A stretch of 64,000 bases of DNA from positions 2,046,001 to 2,110,000 of the forward strand of contig NZ_LGUC01000001.1 in the NCBI RefSeq assembly GCF_001307315.1, read 5' to 3'. The stretch comes from Halolamina pelagica. GTDB taxonomy: Archaea > Halobacteriota > Halobacteria > Halobacteriales > Haloferacaceae. The number at the start of each line of letters is the position of its first letter. Position 1 is the stretch's first letter. The notes under the pieces are model-generated. The model was not told the DNA's origin. It searched no databases and saw only the letters and a program-made list of their open reading frames with translations. Made by a program: the position numbers and the translations under genes. This document shows, piece after piece, positions 40,694-46,556 of the stretch.

Positions 40694-41162
40694 GTGTTCG
40701 GCATGAGCCGCGGTCGCTTCCCGCAGTTCAACGCCGCGGCGCAATCCTTCCTCGAGGCAGATGTCGGGCCTGTCGACCCCTCCACTTCCTGTGGGCTAGG
40801 TGCCTGTAACACAGCCGCCGTCTACCGCGTTCCGTGGCACAGCGTCGGCGGCCATCGCCTACTGCGGCTACCATCTCGCTCGGTATCGCGAGCGGCATCC
40901 CGATCTGTTCCAGCGCATCCAGGAGGCAGTCGACGAGGACCTGACCGCGTTCGCGACACGCGGTGACCGCTTCCTCACTTTCGACGCCGTTCCCGAAACG
41001 CTGTTTGAAGAGAAGTTCGTCGCCATCGCGCTGCTCGCGAGCGGTCACGCGCTTGGTCGGGCACTCTGTTACGACGCAGCGGTAGTACTCCTAGCCGACA
41101 GGAGACTCGAAGGAGACACCGGCTTTTTATCATCTGTATTGGAAGCGTATAGCGTTCAGGAG
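40694..41162 (+). pseudogene. Remnant of a zinc-binding conserved gene beside tRNA-Leu(GAG)
   Basis: Two frames together look like one decayed protein. The first (40694 to about 40857) has FNAAAQSFLEADVGPVD and a metal-binding-like CGLGACNTAAVYRVPWHSVGG. The second continues YCGYHLARYRERHPDLFQRI and VAIALLASGHALGRALCYDAAVVLL, including further Cys and His. Joining them needs two extra bases or loss of one, so it differs from the single-base losses elsewhere. The second frame reads without a stop into the histidine kinase, around an AT-rich junction near 41110. It is probably a gene whose 3' end was replaced when the island arrived. Family unknown. Confidence 0.5.
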
Positions 41163-42851
41163 ATGTTTGATGCGAATCTACCGCTTCTACTGTCGCTCCT
41201 GTTACGCGTTTTGGGAGTCATTCTCTCACTGTTTCTGTTACGGCAAGTCGGAGACCGACGGTTCGTATTCTTCACCGCACTGCTCTCTCTGATGGCGATT
41301 CGGCAGGCCATCACGGTGTTAGGTGCACCACCGGGGCTCCGCGAGGTGCCGGGGTTCATCGTCAGCATACTCACAGTTGTACTCGTTCTCTATCTGCTGC
41401 AGTATGTCCGGCAAGAAGCAGCCCTCAAAGACCGGCTGCAAACGATCAACGACGAACTCCGCGCGAATCAAAACCGTCTCCAGGCCGTCCTTGAGGGATC
41501 GCCAGACACGATTTTCCTCGTCGACGAGGCCGGTCGGTGTCGCGAGATACTCGCGGGGACTGAAACGTTCCTGGATGAGGAGGCGGCAGCCTCCGTAGAC
41601 CGTCCGATCGACGAACTCCTGTCTGACGAGGCTGCGACTGCGATCCAGGAGGCGGCCGAGACGACACTCCGTACAGACGACAGCGAGCGCATCGAGTACT
41701 CTGTCGAACGGTCCAACGAACAGCTCGCGTGGTACGAAGCGCGGACGGCCCCACTCGAGCATCCGACCAAGGAGTCCGATCTCGTCCTGTTCACGGCACG
41801 CGACGTGACCGAACGGAAAGACCGCGAACAGAATCTCAGGCGTTTCCGCCGCGCGATCGACACGGCCGGGCACGCTATCTACATTACCGATCACGACGGC
41901 ACGATCGAGTACGTCAATCCCGCATTCGAGGAGGTTACCGGCTACGCGCCCGAGGAAGCTCTCGGTCAGACGCCGAAGTTGCTCGACTCCGGACGGATGG
42001 CTGATGAGTACTTCGTCGACTTGTGGGAGACGATTCTGGCGGGCGACGTGTGGGAGGAGAACGTGCTCAACGAGACCAAAAGCGGCGCGCTCTATCACGC
42101 CCACCAGACGATCGCACCGATTACCGACGAGTCCGGCACCGTCGAGGAGTTCGTCGCTATTCAGACGGATATCACACCGCTCAAAGAGCGCGAACGGCAA
42201 CTCAAAGTGCTCTCGCGAGTCCTGCGACATAATCTTCGAAACGAGATGAACGTAATCCTCGGGAAGGCAGGGGAGATTCAACTGACCGCCACTGGGAAGA
42301 CTGCAGCGGATGCGGCACAGATCGAACAGACCAGCGAAGGGCTGTTGTCGCTCGCCGAGACATACCGTGACATTCTCGATCTCATAGAGACGTCGGAGTC
42401 CCCGCGTCCGATCTCGCTCGTCGACCGCCTCCGAACGCAGGTGCAGCAGTTCCGACGGGAGTATCCTGAGGCACGCGTGACTGTCGAGATAGACTGTCCC
42501 GAAGAGACGGCTGTCGTCGCGATGCCAGGCATCGAACGGGCAGTCGGAGAGCTACTCGAGAACGCTGCTGTGCACGCGGAGCAAGCGCATCCAGCGGTCA
42601 CGCTGCGAGTCGAAGACCACACCGACACAGTTCGGATCCAGGTCGCCGATACCGGTCCAGGTATCCCCGCTGTAGAGCGCGAGACACTGCTGGGCGAGAC
42701 CGAGATTGGATCGCTGTCTCACGGGACCGGGCTCGGCCTGTGGTTCGTGTACTGGATCGTCAGGCGGTCGAACGGCCACCTGTCGTTCGAAGAGAACGAT
42801 CCTCGAGGGAGCATCGTGACGATAGAACTGGAGCGATCGACGAGGGAGTAA
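41163..42851 (+). CDS. Membrane PAS-domain histidine kinase
   Basis: A 562-residue sensor kinase if started at ATG 41163, which lies about 35 bases after a TATA-like CTTTTTATC (41123-41131); the open frame extends to 40800. Three N-terminal helices (LLLSLLLRVLGVILSLFLL, FVFFTALLSLMAIRQAITVL, GFIVSILTVVLVLYLLQYV) are followed by a coiled linker and two PAS domains (about residues 100-215 and 225-345; YITDHDGTIEYVNPAFEEVTGY in the second). The H-box is VLRHNLRNEMNVI. HATPase boxes are ELLENAAVHA, DTGPGIP and GTGLGLWFVYWIV. No response regulator is adjacent. It shows lower GC and freer codon use than neighbours, suggesting transfer. Confidence 0.88.
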   Translation: MFDANLPLLLSLLLRVLGVILSLFLLRQVGDRRFVFFTALLSLMAIRQAITVLGAPPGLREVPGFIVSILTVVLVLYLLQYVRQEAALKDRLQTINDELRANQNRLQAVLEGSPDTIFLVDEAGRCREILAGTETFLDEEAAASVDRPIDELLSDEAATAIQEAAETTLRTDDSERIEYSVERSNEQLAWYEARTAPLEHPTKESDLVLFTARDVTERKDREQNLRRFRRAIDTAGHAIYITDHDGTIEYVNPAFEEVTGYAPEEALGQTPKLLDSGRMADEYFVDLWETILAGDVWEENVLNETKSGALYHAHQTIAPITDESGTVEEFVAIQTDITPLKERERQLKVLSRVLRHNLRNEMNVILGKAGEIQLTATGKTAADAAQIEQTSEGLLSLAETYRDILDLIETSESPRPISLVDRLRTQVQQFRREYPEARVTVEIDCPEETAVVAMPGIERAVGELLENAAVHAEQAHPAVTLRVEDHTDTVRIQVADTGPGIPAVERETLLGETEIGSLSHGTGLGLWFVYWIVRRSNGHLSFEENDPRGSIVTIELERSTRE

Positions 42852-43344
42852 CAAACGAGGGAGTTCAGCTTACTTACTAGAGAGGGTGTCATAGAACGCT
42901 TCTCACACCGAGATGATCGTGCTTCCCGGATCGTCTCCACGTTCGTAGTTAGTGATTGCGACGAGGAGGCGAAGCCACAGCGCGAAAATCATCTTGCAGG
43001 GTCGCTGAACTCATCCACCTCAGCATTCACCCTGCTCTTTGGTGTGCCACTCGTTCTATGACACCCTCGGGCGAGTGGCAACTCGGCTCCATATGAACCG
43101 TCTGTACTTAGCAATCTTCTCAGTCTATTTCAGCCACTGTAGCGTGACTGATTCGCATCTCTCATCTACCGGCTGTTTCAGATGAGAACCTATCCGGAGA
43201 AGAGGATTTCAACAGAGCCACTGACTCCACCGACTATCTTGATTTGTTGAAGAAGACGACCTGCTCCAACACTACCCAGCATATCCCGACGAGATTTCCT
43301 TGGATTACTGTACACGATCTGTTCTCTGGGATAACGAGTGGCGG
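42852..43344. other. 493-bp AT-rich spacer between kinase and surface protein
   Basis: Holds the 187-bp insertion-sequence remnant (42882-43068). The rest (43069-43344) contains no convincing gene. One frame near 43246-43344 reads EEDDLLQHYPAYPDEISLDYC, which looks coding but has no start and runs into the surface-protein gene region in antisense, so it is at most a relic. The segment is clearly AT-richer than the window average. Confidence 0.6.
42882..43068 (-). mobile_element. 187-bp MITE-like internally deleted insertion sequence
   Basis: Perfect 17-bp terminal inverted repeats: GAGGGTGTCATAGAACG at 42882-42898 and its reverse complement at 43052-43068. On the minus strand a GTG soon after the right end opens MNAEVDEFSDPA, then the frame stops at an internal joint. 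Beyond it comes MIFALWLRLLVAITNYERGD and a further nine residues to a stop just before the left repeat. This looks like the first dozen and last ~29 codons of a transposase with the middle deleted. No target-site duplication is obvious in the flanks. It could still be mobilised in trans by an intact relative elsewhere. Confidence 0.8.
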
Positions 43345-45837
43345 TTACCGTCTACACAAGAGAAGAGCTCCACCCAGCAGCGAGACGAGGGCTGATACAA
43401 TTCCGAACCCTGGTGCGGACGTCCCGGTTGTCGTTGGTGCCGGCGTTGTTTTAGTCGCCGTGTCAATTGAGGGTACGGGTTCAGTCGTCGTTGGTGTCGT
43501 CGTTGACGTGCTAGTCTGGGTGCTAGTGGTAGTCGGTGTAGTGGTCGTTGTTTGTTCAGGTGTGTCCTCTACGACGACAACGAATGTCGGGAAACTCTGT
43601 GTGTCGATCCTATACGTATCGTTTCCGAGATACGTTTTTTCAGTTTGACCCCACGTCTCGCCGTCCGCGTGATAAACATCGACTGCTGACGGGTCATCAG
43701 GCATCTGTTCTTCTGGGACCCGTACTGTAATTTCACCGTTCGTGACTCTATCTGCGAGATTCCCGTCGATAGTAACACTCACGTAGCCCGTCTGCTCAGC
43801 ATCACTGTATTCGGGGACACCTTGTGGTGGTTCCGTTCCGGCTTGGACCTTCATATCGTTGTGGATGTTTGTCCCCATGTCGAAGGACACGTTTACTCGC
43901 TCAACGACGATTGTTTTCGTATCCACGTTTTCGGTCGGAACGGATAATGTATCCCCGATTTTGTACCCAGTAATAGTGCCCTGCATCTCTCCATCTTCGG
44001 TCGCGGTTTCAGTATCCTGCTCATCGATCTCGAACCCTGTCGAAATACTACTACCACCCCCGCCAGTGGACGGATCCGTCGTATCGACATCATACGTCGT
44101 CGACACCGCACTGCTCATCTCATTCCCGTCTAGGTCTTTCGCTCCATCGACTTCCAAACTTACTCCCGTTACCTCCTCGTTGTCATCCGCAAATTGAACG
44201 TCCAGTTTAAAGGTTTGAGCATCAGTCCAGCGTTTATTCTCGACTGTCGGAACAGTCGATAAGTCACCGTTGACGTCCGGCGTGACTGTGACATCATCCG
44301 TATTTTGGGACATTCTTTCGCTAAATGACACGGTGACCGTAACCTCATTGCCATCACCGGTCTCCGCATTAGTTATCGGCGTGGGTGAGAGAATCGGCGT
44401 GCTTCCCGTCGGGTTCGTCGTACTGACGACGAACGTGTTCGACGTATCCGGACTGCTCATCACGTTTCCGTTCGAATCGGCAGCCCCGCTCACCTCAATC
44501 GTTGCTGTCACGTCCTCGTCATTGTCCGCGATAGTGACCGCCCCTGTCCAAGTGGAATCACTGAACGAACTCTCAGAGACTGTGATCGGACCACCACTCA
44601 CACCCGTAATCTCGACTATTGGAGTCGTCGATGTATCCATCGATTCTGCAAACTCAACAGTGACTATCTGCTGATTTCCTGCATTTCCATCAGTTATCGG
44701 CGTGTTCGAGATCGAGGCGCTGCTCACTTTCGGGTTCGTCGTATCGACATCATACGTCGTGGACACCGAACTGCTCATCTCATTCCCGTCTAGGTCTTTC
44801 GCTCCATCGACTTCCAAGCTTACCCCCGTTACCTCCTCGTTGTCATCCACAAATTGAACGTCCACTTTAAAGGTTTGAGCATCAGTCCAGCGTTTATTCT
44901 CGACTGTCGGAACAGTCGATAGGTCACCGTTGACGTCCGGCGTGACTGTGACATCACCCGTATTTTGTGTCATGTCCTCGTCAAACGTTACCGTTACTGT
45001 AACTTCATTCGTGTCGCCCGTCTGGGCATCCGTGATCGGAGTCGTTGAGAGTTTGGGTGTGGTTCCGGTCGGAGAGACAACAGCATCGCTCGTTTTTGCT
45101 GTTGCCGCTCCACCGAAGAAGTTGAACGAACCTGCCTCATTTTCGGTTACGTTGATCGTGATTTTCTCTAACGTCTTGTCCGAGTTAGCAGAGATTGCAA
45201 ACCCCCAGATTCCGGGAGCATCTGCATCCTCGTAATATGAGGGGTAAACCGACGGATCACCCTCATGGTACCATCGGTCCATTCCATCTTTGAGGACGTA
45301 TCCCGGATTGTTAGGCGGACCTCCATACCAATCCGGAACTGTGAATTCTTGAGACGTGTAGGAAGTGCCATCACTATAGTGAAGTTTGGCCCTGAATTTT
45401 GCAGGTGAACCGGCGCCAGCTCCCCCGGCAGAGGCAATCACGTGAACCGTTTCATACTGTCCATCTGAAACAGTGAACGTATTTTCATTCGTTGTGGAGA
45501 CTTGCCATGCGTTGTTACCAGCGTTGCCATGAGTAGTAGCGAGTTCTATCCTTGGGTGGGTCGAAGTTGAAGGGAAAACGCCATCATCCGGTAATCCATC
45601 ACCTGAATTCGCATTATTACCTGCAACAGTATTTGTAACTAACGCTCCCCAGCCATCAAAGTCCCCGGACTCATCTTCTCCATATACGACGTCTGCATTG
45701 TAGGCTGAAGAAAAGTCGAATTGAACTGTATTACCGGCTGCACTCGCTGATCCTGAGACGGCTACAACACCGACGAATATCGACGACACGATCATTAGAG
45801 ACAGCCACACAGCCCCTAGTTTATCTACACTTGACAT
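43345..45837 (-). CDS. Surface glycoprotein-like protein with Ig-like repeats and PGF-CTERM anchor
   Basis: An 830-residue secreted protein. Signal peptide: VWLSLMIVSSIFVGVVAVSGSASAAG (residues about 10-35). A Tyr/Trp/Gly-rich beta domain occupies residues 36-250. Three SbsA-type Ig-like repeats cover residues about 265-590 (TPITDAQTGDTNEVTVTVTF and variants), the first and third nearly identical in DNA. A PGF-pre-PGF-like domain (residues about 640-760) is followed by a Thr-rich, probably O-glycosylated stalk. The C-terminal sorting signal is PGFGIVSALVSLLGGALLL plus CRR, recognised by archaeosortase A. ATG 45837 gives the signal peptide; the frame is open to 45978. AT-rich composition marks it as island cargo, probably an adhesin or surface decoration. 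Confidence 0.88.
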   Translation of the reverse strand: MSSVDKLGAVWLSLMIVSSIFVGVVAVSGSASAAGNTVQFDFSSAYNADVVYGEDESGDFDGWGALVTNTVAGNNANSGDGLPDDGVFPSTSTHPRIELATTHGNAGNNAWQVSTTNENTFTVSDGQYETVHVIASAGGAGAGSPAKFRAKLHYSDGTSYTSQEFTVPDWYGGPPNNPGYVLKDGMDRWYHEGDPSVYPSYYEDADAPGIWGFAISANSDKTLEKITINVTENEAGSFNFFGGAATAKTSDAVVSPTGTTPKLSTTPITDAQTGDTNEVTVTVTFDEDMTQNTGDVTVTPDVNGDLSTVPTVENKRWTDAQTFKVDVQFVDDNEEVTGVSLEVDGAKDLDGNEMSSSVSTTYDVDTTNPKVSSASISNTPITDGNAGNQQIVTVEFAESMDTSTTPIVEITGVSGGPITVSESSFSDSTWTGAVTIADNDEDVTATIEVSGAADSNGNVMSSPDTSNTFVVSTTNPTGSTPILSPTPITNAETGDGNEVTVTVSFSERMSQNTDDVTVTPDVNGDLSTVPTVENKRWTDAQTFKLDVQFADDNEEVTGVSLEVDGAKDLDGNEMSSAVSTTYDVDTTDPSTGGGGSSISTGFEIDEQDTETATEDGEMQGTITGYKIGDTLSVPTENVDTKTIVVERVNVSFDMGTNIHNDMKVQAGTEPPQGVPEYSDAEQTGYVSVTIDGNLADRVTNGEITVRVPEEQMPDDPSAVDVYHADGETWGQTEKTYLGNDTYRIDTQSFPTFVVVVEDTPEQTTTTTPTTTSTQTSTSTTTPTTTEPVPSIDTATKTTPAPTTTGTSAPGFGIVSALVSLLGGALLLCRR
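44077..44307 (-). repeat. Direct repeat, copy encoding residues ~510-587 of the surface protein
   Basis: About 231 bp nearly identical to 44737-44967, at an exact offset of 660 bases. It encodes the third Ig-like repeat (NTDDVTVTPDVNGDLSTVP to STTYDVDTTDP). Differences include V/A and K/S changes only. Confidence 0.92.
44737..44967 (-). repeat. Direct repeat, copy encoding residues ~290-367 of the surface protein
   Basis: Partner of 44077-44307. Both encode QNTxDVTVTPDVNGDLSTVP and the following Ig-like strands. The near-identity at DNA level indicates recent duplication or gene conversion, with a diverged middle repeat between. Confidence 0.92.
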
Positions 45838-46556
45838 CACTCCACCCCCCTCAGTTGATCCGCGAACCGTGCTCTCATTGGTGCATCTCCTTGCGCGGAC
45901 AATACTGAACACTCTGTAGACTTCCGACCGAGCGACAATCCCCCCAATCATGAACACGAGCCGGCCCTTTCGTGCCACCCCGCAACCGAGCCTTCCCGAG
46001 ATCTAGTCCTCCGTCAGTCCAGACGGTAACGGACTCATTGATTCCCAAGACCTCCCGCGGCTCCCCCTTCCTTTGGCTTCTTGGTTCGCCCCCGGCGAGC
46101 GAGCGAACAATGTCAGGTACAGCTTCAGGTTGGTGTCCATTTTGTACGTCGCTCGCGCCACGCCTAAGCATGTTTAACGATTACATACCTATACCAAAAC
46201 CGTTTTGGCGCTCATCCATTTTGAAACCGCTCACTGCAATATATTGTAAGGTAGGAGTCCCGTGATCTAGACGGTCAGTGAGTAGATTTCAGCCAAAATA
46301 GTCGGGGATCATATAATTGTCACGGCCACTCGGCGATCACTGGTCCAAAGAAGAGCAAAAGGCGGGTCAACAATCAAGTATGGCCTACGCCGAGCGGCTG
46401 TTTCAGAACGCCGAAACTGTCGCTATCCCTTTGTCGGTCTTCGAGCGCAAGAAAGTATTGCGCTCGCCAACCAGGCGGCCTCCACCATCCGGGCCTTGCC
46501 CACCCAAAATCCGTCCGAACGATAGCCAACGAGCGACAGCGATATCCTGCGGAACT
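45838..46556. other. 719-bp AT-rich region upstream of the surface protein
   Basis: Contains the surface-protein promoter; the minus-strand sequence just before its ATG (GGGGTGGAGTGATG) gives a weak ribosome-binding site. A 98-codon minus-strand frame (45875-46171) and a 97-codon plus-strand frame (45972-46265) overlap each other; neither has a recognisable family or good start context, though the minus one contains the coding-like EVLGINESVTVWTDGGLDLG. Strong AT runs around 46171-46316 (ATATATTGTAAGG, ATCATATAATTGTCACGG) look like promoter or relic DNA. No gene can be supported. Confidence 0.5.

Follow-up and report, generated by a model that had tools for sequence, protein, structure and literature searches.

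Among the described elements closest to the one reported here, ISH2 of Halobacterium is presented in PMC10264941 as a MITE with ISH8-type ends that is mobilised in trans. The same source gives MITEHsal2 of Halobacterium salinarum 91-R6 a length of 411 to 413 bp with 6- to 8-bp duplications and lists the duplications of the insertion sequence (IS) ISH11 as 6, 8 and 9 bp. The MITEs of Haloquadratum are described in PMC3119063 as unrelated to their partner transposon save for the terminal bases, and MITEs tend, according to PMC10969869, to be multicopy. The window analyzed here, a stretch of 64,000 nucleotides from Halolamina pelagica (contig NZ_LGUC01000001.1, positions 2,046,001 to 2,110,000), contains an element of 187 bp (42882 to 43068 of the window, no strand assigned) that is very probably a solitary internal-deletion relic of an ISH11-like insertion sequence. 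Like the relic, ISH2 is transposase-free and dependent on another IS; unlike the relic, it belongs to another IS group, is multicopy, and is related to its partner by the termini only. Compared with the Haloquadratum MITEs, the window element is also of another kind, being the remnant of an internal deletion.

Anatomy and origin of the 187-bp element

The element is bounded by terminal inverted repeats of 28 nt (left, 42882 to 42909, plus strand; right, 43041 to 43068, minus strand) that are 86% complementary and perfect over the outer 17 nt. The first-pass annotation had reported these perfect 17-bp ends, and its coordinates for the element proved exact. The repeats start with GAGGGTGTCATAGAA, as in the ISH11-like group. 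In relatives, the perfect outer repeat usually extends over 16 nt at most, and the 17th base pair is nearly private to the window copy: of 54 full-length relatives, 42 have a T at position 17 and one has a G.

Aligned with intact copies, positions 1 to 104 of the element correspond to one end of an ISH11-like element and its last 81 nt to the other, collinear and in the same orientation. Identity reaches 94% for the left 104 nt (E ~1e-41) and 98% for the right 81 nt (E ~1e-34). The closest left end, matching at 98 of 104 positions, belongs to an interrupted copy on a plasmid of Halococcus dombrowskii (L166), and the best right ends match at 79 of 81. The correspondence of the two halves with the two ends of one kind of IS sustains the original proposal of a non-autonomous element formed by internal deletion. 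The idea of a chance inverted repeat was discarded as having a negligible probability, since both ends match annotated IS elements at E values of ~1e-30 or better.

The same terminal inverted repeats are carried by ISH11 itself (Halobacterium salinarum NRC-1, 1,068 bp, annotated as IS5-like) and by ISHma6 (Haloarcula marismortui), which also share the ends and the orientation of the transposase gene with the 187-bp element. Identity to these two is 88 to 90% on the left and 86 to 96% on the right, other copies being closer. Unlike them, the window element is without ~880 bp of the middle, without a transposase and without a target duplication.

Remnants of both ends of one transposase frame, as first claimed, are present on the minus strand. 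The 3'-end remnant (42903 to 42985), delimited by alignment to ISH11 (Halobacterium NRC-1) and ISHma6, retains approximately the last 27 codons with the stop codon (FALWLRLLVAITNYERGDDPGSTIISV), and the 5'-end remnant (42988 to 43014) encodes the first nine annotated codons, MSSATLQDD, that is, the annotated start codon and eight further codons. The two stubs are joined out of frame at the deletion junction (42986 to 42987, no strand assigned), which consists of two bases outside both matching halves, marks the loss of ~880 nt and has no clear microhomology. Because the complete DDE transposase gene of the ISH11-like group is missing, the element is a derivative and not an IS. The intact transposase of this group has a DDE_Tnp_1 domain and an NCBI annotation as IS5-like; of the NCBIfam models, one for IS1182 matches it best, with a score under the curated cut-off.

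This anatomy suggests that a copy of ~1,068 bp, with its transposase on the minus strand, would have lost ~880 bp of its middle, presumably in a single event, leaving both ends and an out-of-frame gene stub. The deletion may have occurred in place, or an already shortened copy may have arrived. The relic sits in a gap between convergent genes, a location that would tolerate insertions. Excess decay of the relic was considered and rejected: a singleton count gives two private bases on the left and none on the right, and by the same count 10 of 49 full-length copies also have at least two private bases at the left end.

A search of 72,556 plasmid records recovered the ends of the element from numerous haloarchaeal insertion sequences, among them the annotated ISH11 (NRC-1) and ISHma6 (H. 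marismortui); 95 records had any match at E values up to 10. Of 170 family genomes, 81 have related ends, as do 178 of a sample of 392 genomes from the order. The first reading had been staked on other copies or a related transposase existing in some haloarchaeon, and both such ends and intact transposases are widespread. Phages gave weak matches only to the element, and its junction is absent from the viral contigs searched. The ISH11-type end motif was also seen in one viral contig, IMGVR_UViG_3300034190_002401 (L161, 4498 to 4514).

Copy number, target duplication and mobility

The element is present in a single copy in the genome, whose assembly is rated 79.9% complete. The suggested search for its end motif, run with up to three mismatches, found this pair and nine scattered sites with three mismatches in the genome, compared with two for the reversed control. 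A search with the ISH11 transposase matched the remnant itself and retrieved no further related transposase in the genome, and the one DDE_Tnp_1 match of this genome sits elsewhere, not at the element; given the completeness of the assembly, the unassembled remainder could hold a partner transposase or additional copies. Since both ends are intact, an ISH11-type transposase could in principle move the relic in trans. As no ISH11-type transposase was found in this genome, the relic is probably stranded and immobile.

The deletion junction is not shared in the 170 family genomes, the 392 order genomes or the 72,556 plasmid records, and an 18-nt junction pattern was matched at 7 of 246 loci, all seven being this genome's own copy. 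Other deletion derivatives of the same group, of 333 bp (L175), 634 bp (L155) and 931 bp (L222), have different junctions, and further derivatives of ISH11-like elements measure 246 bp (L164), 325 bp (L165) and 146 bp (L034). Those at L175, L155, L164, L165 and L034 have the same type of origin as the 187-bp element but different junctions. Because the junctions differ among ISH11-like derivatives, these represent separate deletions. Hence, these widespread haloarchaeal elements repeatedly lose their middle and keep both ends, and such end-retaining deletions are raw material for elements that are moved in trans.

Both flanks are present for 54 distinct full-length relatives; in 31 of these the flanks show an exact duplication of 6 to 12 bp and in 23 there is none, whereas randomly paired flanks show a duplication at a rate of 1.4%. 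The window copy has no target duplication between its left and right flanks (0 bp). Only six of the 104 left positions separate the relic from its nearest relative; with so few changes, a duplication of ~8 bp should still show if both flanks had stayed, and we infer that at least one flank was likely replaced after insertion.

The label "MITE-like" in the first-pass annotation fits insofar as the element is short, free of a transposase and bounded by the terminal inverted repeats of a known IS, but it does not fit a single copy whose junction is shared by nothing searched. The signs by which transposition of the short form itself would be recognized, namely, a target duplication and the same junction at several sites, are not seen. 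The element is a solitary relic and not a demonstrated MITE.

Elements with the same ends provide a comparison. A 395-bp element of Halomicrobium katesii occurs in five copies that differ at 0 to 2 positions and have exact flank duplications of 6 to 12 bp, and the same genome carries a full-length ISH11-like element (L061). Its 405-bp relative in H. salinarum 91-R6, flanked by a 7-bp duplication, is probably MITEHsal2, judging from length and strain. Both share the terminal ~24 nt with the relic, lack a transposase and have target duplications of ISH11 size. The 395-bp element is multicopy, unlike the relic, and the interiors of the 395- and 405-bp elements match neither the relic nor ISH11-like elements. 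The five copies of the 395-bp element suggest that ISH11-type ends without a transposase of their own can be moved in trans. Relatives of these 395- to 405-bp elements (L093, 4716 to 5110; L257, 21 to 425) in several genera contain an annotated open reading frame for a CopG-type ribbon-helix-helix protein.

Self-folding of the relic

Self-folding of the relic yields −96.1 kcal/mol (z of −10.5). When the intact ends of 49 full-length relatives are joined artificially, the median is −81.5 kcal/mol and the most stable join reaches −90.8 kcal/mol, so that the relic is more stable than all of them. Six substitutions in the left half (positions 17, 30, 51, 70, 84, and 94) are derived with respect to both the nearest relative and the majority of 54 copies, and jointly they stabilize the fold by 10.8 kcal/mol. 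Positions 17, 30, 51, and 84 contribute 2.1 to 4.6 kcal/mol each, position 70 contributes nothing, and position 94 acts slightly in the opposite direction. Position 17, in the left arm, has acquired a pairing partner in the right arm, and positions 30, 51, and 84 gain Watson-Crick partners as well. Position 94 also gains a partner, at approximately neutral energy, and position 70 is unpaired.

The observed gain was reached by none of 3000 random sets of six substitutions and by none of 3000 sets with the same base changes placed on the left half. Measured against real rare substitutions in relatives, the window copy ranks first of 27, a ranking that comprises the window copy and 26 relatives with rare substitutions, relatives without any being excluded (48 of 50 sequences were usable, and two were dropped for indels at the left end). 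In this comparison, four of the six substitutions in the window copy are stabilizing versus 12 of 54 in the relatives (Fisher p of 0.038). The derived substitutions mostly strengthen self-folding, and the weaker figure, p of 0.038, was adopted over 0 of 3000. Because the test was made after the fold had been seen, the trend is treated as suggestive.

Weighing the alternative explanations

A genuine MITE would require that the shortened form itself transposed to this site through an ISH11-type transposase acting in trans, one that was lost later or that the assembly does not include. The completeness of both ends and the apparent movement of the same-ended, transposase-free elements of H. katesii (395 bp) and 91-R6 (405 bp) speak for such an event, but the single copy, the unshared junction and the missing target duplication make it rather unlikely. 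The other alternatives concern the fold. It is doubtful, albeit conceivable, that an IS relic freed from coding is evolving towards a near-perfect foldback, either by template switching from arm to arm or by selection as a bidirectional hairpin. The mutational version, in which template switching from one arm of an imperfect palindrome to the other improved the folding without any function, draws on the pairing of position 17 across the arms, on the partners gained at positions 30, 51, and 84, on the failure of both sets of 3000 simulations to match the gain, and on template switching that perfects hairpins being documented elsewhere (as described in PMC8794818). Nevertheless, one tract cannot cover all of the changes, because position 51 is in one arm of the inner hairpin and positions 84/94 are in the other. 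Moreover, position 94 is approximately neutral in energy and position 70 is unpaired, the comparison with real substitutions gives a weak signal (rank 1 of 27, Fisher p of 0.038), and the test was chosen with the fold in view, which leaves this process improbable.

Co-option of the relic, with the foldback at the 3' ends of convergent genes being kept or perfected as a bidirectional hairpin that ends transcripts or protects the 3' ends of mRNAs, is very unlikely. It would suit the convergent genes on either side, a fold that surpasses all 49 artificial joins, and the four of six derived substitutions that stabilize this fold, none clearly weakening it. On the other hand, no consensus terminator-like site is found inside the element, the fold is largely inherent to the ends of the family, as the median of the joins shows, and the trend reaches a p of only ~0.04 against the real substitutions of the relatives. 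As a solitary deletion relic of an ISH11-like IS, the element is an ordinary and well-explained object, and the folding trend is the sole point that deserves another look. If this trend were confirmed, relics of this kind would show palindromes being perfected in archaeal chromosomes; if the foldback reading were true, they would offer a natural archaeal record of the passage from a deleted IS to a palindromic, MITE-like or regulatory hairpin.

Genomic surroundings of the relic

As the first-pass annotation placed it, the element lies between a kinase and a surface protein, within a gap of 493 bp that separates the convergent genes of a PAS-domain histidine kinase (40800 to 42851, plus strand) and a PGF-CTERM surface protein (43345 to 45978, minus strand). 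The left flank, from the stop codon of the kinase gene to the element, measures 30 bp (42852 to 42881, no strand assigned). The GC content falls from ~68% to 50 to 63% over positions 40750 to 46500, which bound both genes.

From 41069 to 42851, the kinase DNA shares 93.5% identity with a gene from a different genus of the same family (G086; L211, 5863 to 7645). The similarity stops exactly at the stop codon (42851), and there is none upstream of 41069. Within its own genus, the only other kinase match at an E value of 1e-60 or better is a relative with 36% identity (G050). The gene body looks transferred, and the N-terminal part is a different one.

The gap contains a second relic, a solo end of ~70 bp from a different IS5-type element (43150 to 43220, minus strand), with the end sequence GGCTCTGTTGAAAT. 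Intact related copies of this second element, of 1,450 and 1,470 bp and with 8-bp flank duplications, are present in one genome of the same genus (G055). The solo end, largely without coding sequence, is found again in 47 plasmid records; the record of Halorubrum sp. PV6 has it at 13 places. Two IS relics thus mark the intergenic gap, next to a kinase gene that another genus shares and that looks transferred. Assignment of the right flank to an IS6 end was rejected, given that the transposase encoded by intact copies with these ends is of the IS5 type and that 8-bp duplications flank those copies. The right flank was likewise rejected as a second MITE in complete form, because the stretch of 81 bp separating the relics resembles the other end of the second element no better than shuffled sequence does, and a right-flank peptide was rejected as a transposase piece for want of any plasmid match. 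In the same genus, a 307-bp stretch (L191, 1501 to 1807) has the ends of the second IS5-type element, an 8-bp flank duplication and no transposase open reading frame.

No empty site was found, and G086 has no comparable site, the similarity being lost at the stop codon of the kinase gene. A query with the joined flanks against the 392 genomes returned the genome's own flanks, the kinase end of G086 and otherwise short matches of 16 to 44 nt (E of 0.0004 to 1), which are taken as chance; in plasmids, it returned one partial match of 47 nt. The first-pass annotation had suggested that the element may have helped to rearrange the island. A rearranged junction would fit both the missing target duplication and the kinase homology, which ends 30 bp short of the element, although a target duplication is also missing in 23 of the 54 full-length relatives, and none of these observations points to the relic as the cause of a rearrangement. 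On the other side of the gap, the surface-protein gene contains a direct repeat of 300 nt (44071 to 44370 and 44731 to 45030) with 89% identity and a spacing of 660.
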